Source: Sulfurospirillum sp. UCH001 (lineage in GTDB: Bacteria; Campylobacterota; Campylobacteria; Campylobacterales; Sulfurospirillaceae). From it: DNA of 64,000 bases. Where the stretch lies: contig NZ_AP014723.1 of assembly GCF_001548035.1 (NCBI RefSeq), positions 1,860,001-1,924,000 on the forward strand. Reading direction: 5' to 3'. Under the pieces are notes generated by a model that saw only the letters and a list, made by a program, of their open reading frames with translations, was not told the origin of the DNA and ran no database searches. Positions 32,470-37,168 of the stretch are shown one piece after another (position 1 is the first letter of the stretch; each line of letters begins with the position of its first letter). A program made the translations under genes and the position numbers.

Positions 32470-33708
32470 GTGAGTACCTTTGTGGGAAGACAACCGATTT
32501 TTGACAAAGAGGGTGTATGCTTTGGGTATGAACTCCTTTATCGTTCTTGTGAAGCTAACAATGTTGCAACATTTCAAGACAATGCTAAAGCCTCCGCACG
32601 CGTTATTGTTAATCTTATTCACAATATTGGACTAACTCCTATCATCGGGCATAAAAGAGGCTATATCAATGTAGATGAGAGTATTCTTTTCAGCGATGCT
32701 ATTTTACTGCTTCCAAAAGAGCATTTTAGTTTTGAAATTTTAGAACACACCAAAGTCTCTTTGGCTCTGTATGAACGCGTAAAACACTTGCACTCGTTGG
32801 GGTATCGTTTTTCGCTCGATGATTTTGACTGTAGCGATACGATGATTAAGTATTATGAACCACTCTTTCCCTACATTGACATTATTAAAGTAGATATTCA
32901 AGCTATCGGAATACCACAACTTCAAATATCGATCGATAAACTTCAAAAATATACTATTCCTCTTCTGGCTGAAAAAATTGAGACACATGAAGAGTATGAA
33001 ACATGCTCAAAACTCGACTTTCAACTTTTTCAAGGGTATTTTTTTGAGCGACCTGTGATTTTAAGCGGGAAAAGAATTGAGCCCAATACCGTTAATGCAT
33101 TGCGACTTATTAATTGTATTCAAGAAAACAATGACGTTGCGTATATATCAGAAAAATTTGCAACCTGCCCTGATCTTGTTTATAACCTTTTACGCCATGT
33201 TAATTCAGGAGCTTACCACTTTAAACAAAAGATCACCTCAATTAAGCAAATGGTGCTTCTTTTAGGTCCTCAGAAAATTATCTCATGGCTTGGACTTTTT
33301 CTTTATGGAGTTCCACAAAACCGCCCTTTTGGAACAGAAATCTTTAATAATGCCAAATTTAGAGCTAAAGTGATGGAAGAGTTAGCACTTATGTGCAATA
33401 AACCTGAGCTTGCCAACAAAGCGTTTCTAACAGGTAGCCTCTCTCTTATTGACGCCTATCTCAACATACCCATGCTTGAGTTTTTGAACAATGTGCACTT
33501 AGATGATGAAATCAAAACCGCCCTACTGTTTCGGGAAGGCTTTTTAGGAGAGCTTCTCTACATCGCTACAGAGATGAACCACTCTGAAGATACAGAAGCA
33601 ACCATAAAAAAACTTGGACATTATCCATGTTTTAGCACAGAACAACTTTATGACGCATGTACCAAAGCAACTATTTTTGTCGAAGAAACCGAAAGTCATC
33701 CAAATTAA
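32470..33708 (+). CDS. YuxH-type EAL-HDOD signalling protein
   Basis: 412 aa, starting with GTG after AAGGAG. The N-terminal ~190 residues are a degenerate EAL domain: GRQPIFDKEGVCFGYELLYRS has YELL in place of the catalytic E-x-L-x-R set, and FSLDDFDCSD stands for DDFGTG. The C-terminal part (about 200-390) is an HDOD domain. The family (E. coli YuxH-like) usually lacks phosphodiesterase activity and acts as an adaptor or c-di-GMP-responsive regulator. It directly precedes the selW-like gene with overlapping Shine-Dalgarno and stop sequences. Confidence 0.85.
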   Translation: MSTFVGRQPIFDKEGVCFGYELLYRSCEANNVATFQDNAKASARVIVNLIHNIGLTPIIGHKRGYINVDESILFSDAILLLPKEHFSFEILEHTKVSLALYERVKHLHSLGYRFSLDDFDCSDTMIKYYEPLFPYIDIIKVDIQAIGIPQLQISIDKLQKYTIPLLAEKIETHEEYETCSKLDFQLFQGYFFERPVILSGKRIEPNTVNALRLINCIQENNDVAYISEKFATCPDLVYNLLRHVNSGAYHFKQKITSIKQMVLLLGPQKIISWLGLFLYGVPQNRPFGTEIFNNAKFRAKVMEELALMCNKPELANKAFLTGSLSLIDAYLNIPMLEFLNNVHLDDEIKTALLFREGFLGELLYIATEMNHSEDTEATIKKLGHYPCFSTEQLYDACTKATIFVEETESHPN

Positions 33709-33717
33709 GGAGTTACT

Positions 33718-33963
33718 ATGAATGTTGTTATTTATTACTGTACACGTTGAGGATATATGCCACGAGCTTTCCGTGTGAAAGATGAAATTTTAATCGCATA
33801 TCCTAGTGCAAACGTATCATTAAGCCCAAAAACGGGTGGTTTTTTTGATGTTGTGGTTGATGAAAAAGTTATTTTCTCTAAAACAGAGAAAATTGGCACA
33901 CCCATTGAACGATTTCCAGAGAGTGGAGAGATTATTTCATTGCTTCAAAAAGCAGATTATTAA
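33718..33963 (+). CDS. selW: SelW-like (Rdx family) selenoprotein with in-frame TGA
   Basis: 81 aa when TGA at 33748-33750 is read as selenocysteine. The start ATG at 33718 follows AAGGAG with good spacing; the frame reads MNVVIYYCTR-U-GYMPRAF, giving the redox motif Cys8-x2-Sec11 typical of SelW-like/Rdx proteins, and continues without a stop through KTGGFFDVVVD and a normal end. Standard gene calling would start at the later ATG (33757) and lose the active site. The protein is expected to have a thioredoxin-like fold and a thiol-redox role. Sec machinery (selA, selB, selC) is not in the window. A genuine stop giving a 10-residue peptide is the less likely alternative. Confidence 0.88.
33751..33803 (+). 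promoter_or_regulatory. Candidate bacterial SECIS element
   Basis: Directly after the TGA, CACG at 33761-33764 pairs with CGTG at 33772-33775 around a 7-base loop AGCTTTC, placing the apical loop 14-21 bases after the TGA, the distance used by bacterial SECIS hairpins. An outer stem can form between GGATAT..GC (33751-33760) and GCATATCC (33796-33803) with a 2-base bulge. Folding was judged by eye. Confidence 0.5.
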
Positions 33964-34010: not shown

Positions 34011-35570
34011 GTGGGCTATTTTACGAGCTTTTGTGTGCGATTAGCTTATAGTATAGAAGCGTCTTCTCGCTATCATCGCATTAAGGAGTTTTGCAGGACA
34101 CTCTTAGAGTATCAGCACTCAAGACTCAAATTTTATTTTGATATTTTCATGGTTATTCTGGTTGTCATCAGTGTTTTTTTCTTACTCTATGAAGTCAAAA
34201 ACCCTGATGGGCACCCTTTTTTAGATACCTTCGTACAATTTTCCTTGGTCGTTTTTATCATTGAGTATCTTTTACGCTTTTGGATCTACTCCGATAGCCA
34301 TAAGATCTTTCTAGAGCGTTATGACTATGCCATCAATAATAACCTACCCTTTTCATTACCACGAACACTCCTTGCCATTCTGAAGAAAAAAGGAGAGTAT
34401 ATTGTCTCTCCTTTAGCCATTATTGACCTCTTAGCTATTTTGCCAAGTTACCGTCCACTGCGCTTTTTGCGTATTTTTCTCTTATTTAGGATTTTTAAAC
34501 TTTTTCGTTATGCAAGAAGTATGAAAACATTTACGGCAATTTTGACAGAAAAGAAATTTGAACTCTTTACTTTGGCTATTTTCGCAAGCTTTGTTATCTT
34601 TACAGGAAGTTCAGCTATTTATATTTTTGAAACACATCAAAATCCCAAAATCAATACCCTCTTTGATGCCCTTTATTGGGCGATTGTGACGATGGGAACC
34701 GTAGGATACGGTGACATCGTTCCTGTAACAACTGAGGGTATGATTGTTTCGATGGTCTTAATTATTTTAGGTGTCGCAACACTCGCTTTTTTGACCTCTA
34801 TCATCGTCTCCTCCTTTCAAAATAAACTTTTAGAACTTAAAGAGAGTCGTCTCTTTGCCGAAGTTGACCGATTAGAGAGTTATATTGTTATCTGTGGTTA
34901 TGGTCGCGTGGGCGAGGTAGTCGCTAAAATGTTGCATGAAGATGGATATAAACTGGTCATTATCGATAATGATGCAGAAAAAATCAAACTAGCCCAAGAA
35001 CGAGGACTCATCGGCATTATTGCAGATGCTTCACGTAGCCGTATTTTAGGCGAACTTGGTGTTGGGAAACGGGCATCCCAAATTATATGTGCTACAAATA
35101 GCGATGAGCTCAATGTCTTCATTACACTTACCGCACGAAGTCTTAGTAAACAGATCATCATCATTGCCCGTGTTATTAAAAATACACATAAACGAAAATA
35201 CTTTTTAGCAGGTGCAAACTACGCATTTAGTGCAGATGAAACAATTGGACTTATGGGAGCACAGTATATTACACAACCGATTTCGTATGCAGCGCTCGAT
35301 GAAATGCTCACAGAAAATACAGGTGTTATCTTCGATATGATTCCTATCCATGAACACGCTTTTTTTGTCAACCAACCTCTTGAAGCACTAGAGCTTAGAG
35401 AAAAACGACTTATGCTTTTTGGCATCTTACGAAAAGAGAGTTCACCAACCTTTTTGTTCAATCCAAAGTCAGATTTTGTACTTCAACCGCATGATATGTT
35501 GATTATTATGGGGCGTAAACATCACATCAATGCTCTGCGCAAACTCAATGACAAAGGAAATATACGATGA
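34011..35570 (+). CDS. Six-TM voltage-gated-like K+ channel with RCK domain
   Basis: 519 aa, GTG start. Six membrane segments, the fourth rich in Arg (RPLRFLRIFLLFRIFKLFRY), like a voltage sensor. The pore loop has the selectivity filter Thr230-Val-Gly-Tyr-Gly-Asp235. After the last segment there is a TrkA-N/RCK Rossmann domain (VICGYGRVGEVVA) and a TrkA-C-like end. It should conduct K+ under control of a cytoplasmic ligand. Related channels exist in Helicobacter (HpKchA). The ATG of the following RCK protein overlaps its stop. Confidence 0.9.
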   Translation: MGYFTSFCVRLAYSIEASSRYHRIKEFCRTLLEYQHSRLKFYFDIFMVILVVISVFFLLYEVKNPDGHPFLDTFVQFSLVVFIIEYLLRFWIYSDSHKIFLERYDYAINNNLPFSLPRTLLAILKKKGEYIVSPLAIIDLLAILPSYRPLRFLRIFLLFRIFKLFRYARSMKTFTAILTEKKFELFTLAIFASFVIFTGSSAIYIFETHQNPKINTLFDALYWAIVTMGTVGYGDIVPVTTEGMIVSMVLIILGVATLAFLTSIIVSSFQNKLLELKESRLFAEVDRLESYIVICGYGRVGEVVAKMLHEDGYKLVIIDNDAEKIKLAQERGLIGIIADASRSRILGELGVGKRASQIICATNSDELNVFITLTARSLSKQIIIIARVIKNTHKRKYFLAGANYAFSADETIGLMGAQYITQPISYAALDEMLTENTGVIFDMIPIHEHAFFVNQPLEALELREKRLMLFGILRKESSPTFLFNPKSDFVLQPHDMLIIMGRKHHINALRKLNDKGNIR

Positions 35571-36262
35571 GAGAAAGTAAAATTCTCCTTTTTGGATTTA
35601 GCCGATCTGCCATTGAGATAGGAACAAGATTACAAGAACAAGGATTGACATTTACCTGTATCGATAATGATGCGAATCTTTTGCCTAAAGCTAAAAAACT
35701 AGGATTTGATCTTCGTATCACGGATTATAGTGACGATGAGACGCTTTTAAATTTGGGTATTGGCGAAGATGTTGGATTTGTCTTTACTCTGTTTGAGGAA
35801 GATGTTCAAAATGTGTTTTTAACACTCTCTATTCGCTCTTTAGACCCAAAGGTGCAAATTGTCTCAACGACGCACACAAAAGATGCCATACATAAGCTTG
35901 AGATTGCAGGTGCTAGCACGATCTTAGATCCTTATCAAATCTGTGGGAAGCGTATCTATAAGCTGATAACACAGCCTGAAATTATGCAAGTGATTGATGC
36001 AACGATTTTTGGGGAAGAAGATATCAACATGGAGCAGATCACCATTACAGCACATTCCCCACTGAATGGATTGTTCTTAAGTGAATGCTATCCTACAGAG
36101 AATTACAATATGCTTCTTGTTGGCATTCACGACAAAGAACTCAAGAAAGAGTTCATTTTTATCACAGAAGGGCGTAACCATAAATTAGATTATGGTGATA
36201 TCTTAGTTGTAATCGGTAAAAGTGCTGAGATAGAACGCTTTAAAATGGATTTTAGTCTATAA
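35567..36262 (+). CDS. Free-standing TrkA/RCK regulatory protein
   Basis: 231 aa. An N-terminal Rossmann fold (ILLFGFSRSAIEIGTRL, with a degenerate GxGxxG), acidic DND after strand 2 (CIDNDANLL) that would bind NAD(H) ribose, and a C-terminal TrkA-C region (LDYGDILVVIGKSAEIERF). It overlaps the K+ channel gene in ATGA, so it is probably an additional RCK subunit for that channel, giving a mixed gating ring. Partner assignment is inference. Confidence 0.8.
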   Translation: MRESKILLFGFSRSAIEIGTRLQEQGLTFTCIDNDANLLPKAKKLGFDLRITDYSDDETLLNLGIGEDVGFVFTLFEEDVQNVFLTLSIRSLDPKVQIVSTTHTKDAIHKLEIAGASTILDPYQICGKRIYKLITQPEIMQVIDATIFGEEDINMEQITITAHSPLNGLFLSECYPTENYNMLLVGIHDKELKKEFIFITEGRNHKLDYGDILVVIGKSAEIERFKMDFSL

Positions 36263-37168
36263 CAGAGGAACAATTAAAAAAAGCGTTCCCACACAGGCTA
36301 ATGTTTCAAGTGTTGTGATGGATGCCATTAAAGAGACATCCCCACCAAGCTCCCGTGCCAATATATGTGAAGACGTTGCTGTTGGCATGGATGCAAAGAT
36401 AATTGCAATGCTTAGGCTCATTCCTGCAAGCCCAAAAATATGCGATAAACCATAAGCGACCATAGGAAATAAAACCAATTTTGCAACGGTTGAAACCACC
36501 AACTCTTTCTTTGCATGTTTGAGGTATTTTAGCTCTAATCCCACACCAACCGATAAAAGCCCCATTGGAAGTGCCGCATGACTCACAATGGAAATACTTT
36601 TTAAAATAAATATCGGCATTTCAATGCCACTGGCATTGATAAGCCCACCAATAGCACAGGCACCAATCAGAGGGTTTGTAAGAATGGTTTTAAAAAAGGC
36701 GCGGAGTGAAAAGTTTCCATCACGCAAATAGATAGCAAAAACGGAGATACACAAAATATTAATAAAGGGAATAGCAAACGCCATTACAATAGCCGCTAAA
36801 ACTAAGCCCTTATCGCCATAAACGGCATTGACCAGTGCTAAAAAGACATAGGTATTAAAACGAATACCTCCTTGGACAATAGAGGTAAATGCTCTGTTCT
36901 CAAAATGCAAAATCATATTAAGTAAAATCAGAATGACCAAGATAAGAAAAATACCACTTAAAGAAGAAAAAACAAGATTAACGGTATGCGTCAAGTCAAT
37001 TTTAGCAACAGAAAGTTCATACACTAAAAGACACGGCATCAAGACATAGTAGGTAAATTTATCCATTTTAGGCCAGAAATCAACAGAAGGAAACTTTGCA
37101 TGCTTAAACGCATACCCTGTAAAAATAATGAAACAAATTGGCAAAAGCGCATTCAAAACATAATTCAT
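36257..37168 (-). CDS. AEC (auxin efflux carrier) family transporter
   Basis: 303 aa, about ten membrane segments, beginning NALLPICFIIFTGYAFKHAKF and with the late family block SIAIIFASMPTATSSHILARELGGD. The family exports or imports organic acids or amino acids (malonate, malate). The substrate is not predictable. It converges with the RCK gene, overlapping its end by six bases, and is two bases downstream of the YciH gene. Confidence 0.85.
   Translation of the reverse strand: MNYVLNALLPICFIIFTGYAFKHAKFPSVDFWPKMDKFTYYVLMPCLLVYELSVAKIDLTHTVNLVFSSLSGIFLILVILILLNMILHFENRAFTSIVQGGIRFNTYVFLALVNAVYGDKGLVLAAIVMAFAIPFINILCISVFAIYLRDGNFSLRAFFKTILTNPLIGACAIGGLINASGIEMPIFILKSISIVSHAALPMGLLSVGVGLELKYLKHAKKELVVSTVAKLVLFPMVAYGLSHIFGLAGMSLSIAIIFASMPTATSSHILARELGGDVSLMASITTLETLACVGTLFLIVPLL

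Follow-up and report, generated by a model that had tools for sequence, protein, structure and literature searches.

The locus that concerns us lies in a window of 64,000 nt (the whole stretch of DNA that was analysed) from the genome of Sulfurospirillum sp. UCH001, which amounts to 2.6 Mb in a single contig. Between the genes for an EAL-HDOD protein and a K+ channel, direct reading of the window gives a frame that runs for 10 codons from an ATG, meets an in-frame TGA as codon 11 and continues for 70 more codons to a normal TAA stop (33961-33963), which is exactly the frame, complete with its AAGGAG site, that the first-pass annotation had proposed (Table 1). With the TGA read as selenocysteine (Sec, or U), the product would have 81 residues (MNVVIYYCTRUGYMPRAF...KADY). 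The Shine-Dalgarno site of this gene, selW, overlaps the TAA stop of the EAL-HDOD gene (33706-33708). A standard ORF caller yields only a 68-aa ORF starting at 33757, without the CxxU motif, just as the earlier annotation had warned that an automatic call at this position would discard the active site; the gene model given here corrects that truncation.

Table 1. Features of the selW locus (window positions) and formate dehydrogenase genes of the same genome (genome:contig:positions).
Feature	Position	Strand	Evidence or remark
selW, predicted Rdx/SelW selenoprotein of 81 aa, codon 11 being Sec	33718..33963	+	Pfam Rdx; 35/44 family genomes with TGA; PDB relatives 2fa8, 3dex, 2npb
In-frame TGA, predicted to be read as selenocysteine	33748..33750	+	Present in each of the 35 family homologues; also read codon by codon at individual loci
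CxxU redox motif C-T-R-U (C8-T-R-U11), putative	33739..33750	+	Aligned with CxxC of 2fa8 and 3dex
Shine-Dalgarno AAGGAG	33707..33712	+	Direct reading; 5 nt before selW ATG
SECIS apical hairpin CTTTC-CGTGT-GAAAG	33767..33781	+	Comparison of loci; covariation
EAL-HDOD protein gene	32470..33708	+	Pfam HDOD, and EAL over profile positions 113-236 of 236 only; 9 nt upstream of selW
TrkA-domain K+ channel, a neighbour only	34011..35570	+	Pfam Ion_trans, TrkA_N, TrkA_C
Formate dehydrogenase alpha genes with TGA	G000:C1:2319566-2320423, 1298352-1299200, 2336765-2337628

There is little room for doubt about the family. When searched with C standing for U, the product matches Pfam Rdx (PF10262) over nearly its full length (E=4.2e-19, 69 bits against a cut-off of 22.6), and its relatives in the PDB are Rdx proteins (2fa8, 3dex, 2obk, 2p0g, 2oka and mammalian SelW, 2npb, which is homologous to the Sulfurospirillum protein by sequence), so that the Rdx/SelW assignment made from the bare sequence holds. 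The CTRU motif aligns with the CxxC of 2fa8 (Atu0228) and 3dex (SAV_2001), sequence homologues that are Cys forms and longer (105 and 107 aa), and a Spirochaetota homologue (L061; here and below, L and G numbers denote loci and genomes) also has Cys at the position of the TGA. Homologues thus carry either TGA (Sec) or Cys there, which disposes of the concern, voiced with the original proposal, that neither might align at this position. By homology to the solved members, SelW probably adopts a thioredoxin-like fold.

Within the family, selW homologues were found in 35 of the 44 genomes, and all 35 have one in-frame TGA within the match, at the same codon in the loci that were read codon by codon. 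Across the phylum sample, Rdx matches above the cut-off occur in 115 of 397 genomes, nearly all of these with a single in-frame TGA. Exceptions are G125, where a truncated match begins only past the motif, and the second copies of G297 and G198, which lack a TGA. The latter two genomes belong, with G149, to a genus (family f3, genus g16) in which tandem pairs of Rdx genes are seen (e.g. G297:C1:1266854-1267444); in G297 and G198, one gene of the pair has the in-frame TGA and the other does not, which places Sec and apparently Cys copies side by side. In the valid comparisons among ungapped Sulfurospirillum relatives, which leave out L024 and L026 (mis-registered start) and L033 (which gave no dS), dN/dS is about 0.07-0.17, whether the entire gene or just the stretch 3' of the TGA is considered. 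The Pfam match, the TGA in all 35 family homologues and these dN/dS values together mean that the frame is not a product of chance. The gene is nevertheless dispensable, since at least five relatives are without it, and in one genome (L038, at G022:C1:2109622-2109863) it has a frameshift around residues 52-68, where two matches in different frames overlap, as a result of either decay or sequencing error.

Loss of the gene in some relatives, the frameshift in G022 and the 68-aa output of the standard ORF caller are what could be invoked to view selW as a pseudogene, or its TGA as a Cys codon altered by sequencing error, the 68-aa ORF then being the real gene or nothing being made at all. This is already refuted by the family homologues from independent genomes, 35 of 35 of which have their TGA at this very codon, and it is further contradicted by (i) the purifying selection acting on selW, (ii) the covariation of the SECIS hairpin described below and (iii) the fact that the 68-aa form would be deprived of its N-terminal strand and active site. 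We therefore give it virtually no credence.

The machinery for Sec incorporation is at hand in the genome: tRNA-Sec (selC), selB and selD were all found, and a selA-like ORF, identified by reading the ORF, ends at the start of selB. The first-pass annotation had advised looking for these four genes, with particular weight on selB and selC, and the set is complete. Since three formate dehydrogenase alpha (fdhA) genes in this genome have one in-frame TGA each, Sec decoding is, judging from the sequence, very likely in use. The fdhA genes have similar hairpins of 5 bp with a 5-nt loop, 13 nt after the TGA (TCGCC-GGTGT-GGCGA and TTGCC-GGTGC-GGCAA). The same genome also has a Sel_put/DUF466 (PF04328) gene (G000:C1:1171081-1171266), a family in which a C-terminal Sec is reported to occur in some Campylobacterales (PMC4607533).

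The stem-loop that the first-pass annotation had placed after the TGA of selW is shown by comparison of loci, though not by folding of the single sequence. The hairpin, again of 5 bp with a 5-nt loop, begins 16 nt after the TGA, and its five standard pairs are kept in 29 of 29 distinct selW sequences, whereas the next best register is kept in only nine of the 29. Pair types vary among relatives (CTCTG/CAGAG, CTTCC/GGAAG, CTTCG/CGGAG), and a Dehalococcoidia homologue has CCGTC/GGCGG with the loop GGTCT. Both-side, compensatory changes affect four of the five pairs, and pairing drops from 100% to 49-65% when the register is slid. The covariation score was reached by 0 of 500 shuffles, a count that is not to be taken as a probability because the sequences are related and the register was picked after inspection. 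The hairpin also fits all 20 loci from a later phylum search (some of which are from the same genomes), with the new pair types CTGCA/TGCAG and CTTCT/AGAAG; across the window, 5-bp/5-nt hairpins occur at 0.9% of positions. Folding of the single sequence around the TGA, by contrast, gave no significant structure (z -0.5 to +1.1); the minimum-energy structures differ from the conserved helix, and their own CACG/CGTG helix is broken in relatives, L023 and L033 among them. There is no Rfam match at selW, and a search with Rfam SECIS_1 was also empty, but its control likewise gave nothing, so that this second search carries no weight. With a SECIS model derived from selW, selW was the sole significant match in the genome, this model being too specific for listing other selenoproteins. 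Epsilonproteobacterial SECIS elements have been described as hairpins of 5/6 bp whose loop has an invariant G (PMC4607533), a description with which the selW hairpin agrees.

Reading of the UGA by some other route, such as a near-cognate tRNA (e.g. for Trp), would also account for the open frame, which is the sole point in its favour. It would leave aside the Sec machinery encoded in the genome, the conservation of a hairpin whose architecture is common to the fdhA hairpins, and the Cys found at this position in the PDB relatives and in L061, and is in our view scarcely credible. We are, on the contrary, almost certain that this is a genuine selW, whose UGA at 33748 is read as Sec via SelB and the hairpin to give an 81-residue C-x-x-U redox protein. 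SelB with Sec-tRNA(Sec) would recognise the hairpin 3' of the UGA, and selenocysteine would be inserted there instead of termination, giving a full-length Rdx protein with a thioredoxin-like fold whose C-x-x-U pair, close to the N-terminus, would carry out cytosolic thiol/selenol redox chemistry; the protein would most likely be a small reductase of peroxides or disulfides. The grounds for this are the frame, the homology, the conservation of the TGA, the covariation of the SECIS and the Sec machinery, while Sec incorporation in Sulfurospirillum sp. UCH001, like the redox activity and the substrate of SelW, is something we infer.

SelW-like selenoproteins have been listed for bacteria, Sec being the probable original form (PMC1794560). 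In the same phylum, Campylobacter jejuni SelW (CJnc60, or Intergenic_671549-671895) was discovered computationally in 2005 (PMC1242214); it likewise has about 81 aa and an in-frame UGA read by tRNA-Sec, and it was likewise missed in annotation. Its translation past the UGA was shown in 2025 by Ribo-seq and proteomics/MS (PMC11955535), whereas the Sulfurospirillum gene is known here from sequence. The SelW, FdhA and SelD selenoproteins of Epsilonproteobacteria and their SECIS have also been described (PMC4607533), and share with Sulfurospirillum selW a hairpin a few nt after the UGA, the selA/B/C/D trait and frequent omission of SelW from annotation; the main text of that paper does not name Sulfurospirillum. 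Epsilonproteobacterial SelW, the frequency with which it goes unannotated and its SECIS are thus already published, and the protein considered here is a real but ordinary small redox selenoprotein of a kind already known in the phylum. On its own, the finding raises no new question; what it adds is a collection of loci, well supported, in which the SECIS covaries.

The position of selW between a c-di-GMP-type regulator and a K+ channel had been taken as a hint of its physiological setting, an idea that fares poorly. In the window, selW is perhaps co-transcribed with the EAL-HDOD gene. Each of the 18 loci of the genus that carry selW has an EAL-HDOD gene immediately 5' of it, which, with the overlap of stop codon and Shine-Dalgarno site in the window, is what commends a role for SelW in the c-di-GMP or K+ signalling of its neighbours, e.g. 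as a redox sensor serving the EAL-HDOD protein or the K+ channel. Such a role we consider very unlikely. The channel follows selW in 16 of the 18 loci and is missing in L032 and L035, where its place is taken by a gene for an AEC-type permease (so named from its homology to window positions 36257-37168); in the sister-genus loci that were read, with flanks of about 1.5 kb either way, no EAL-HDOD gene was found near selW; and EAL-HDOD persists where selW was lost. The EAL match is moreover confined to the second half of the profile, which makes c-di-GMP hydrolysis by this neighbour doubtful. With neighbours that differ from genus to genus and, in part, inside Sulfurospirillum itself, losses of selW and a partial EAL match, the neighbourhood is a poor guide to SelW function. 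That the overlap might couple translation of selW to that of EAL-HDOD, and so tie a degenerate regulator of the c-di-GMP type to the selenium or redox state in Sulfurospirillum, is a similarly long shot.

Among the sister-genus loci, the gene order in L050 is rSAM-HIT-selW, with an AEC gene about 1 kb further on, and an AEC gene is also found downstream of selW in L042, L047 and L049; the simplest reading would be that rSAM-HIT-selW-AEC is the ancestral order and that the other genes entered in Sulfurospirillum. In G013, G014, G027, G031 and G026 (L066, L067, L069, L064 and L065, respectively), EAL-HDOD adjoins the AEC gene, with neither selW nor the channel, which amounts to a clean loss, and in G023 it adjoins the channel, selW being missing. 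Five of these selW-less genomes (G013, G014, G023, G026 and G027) have selB above the cut-off, and such losses within a single genus, in genomes that keep selB, would permit a comparison of relatives with and without selW.
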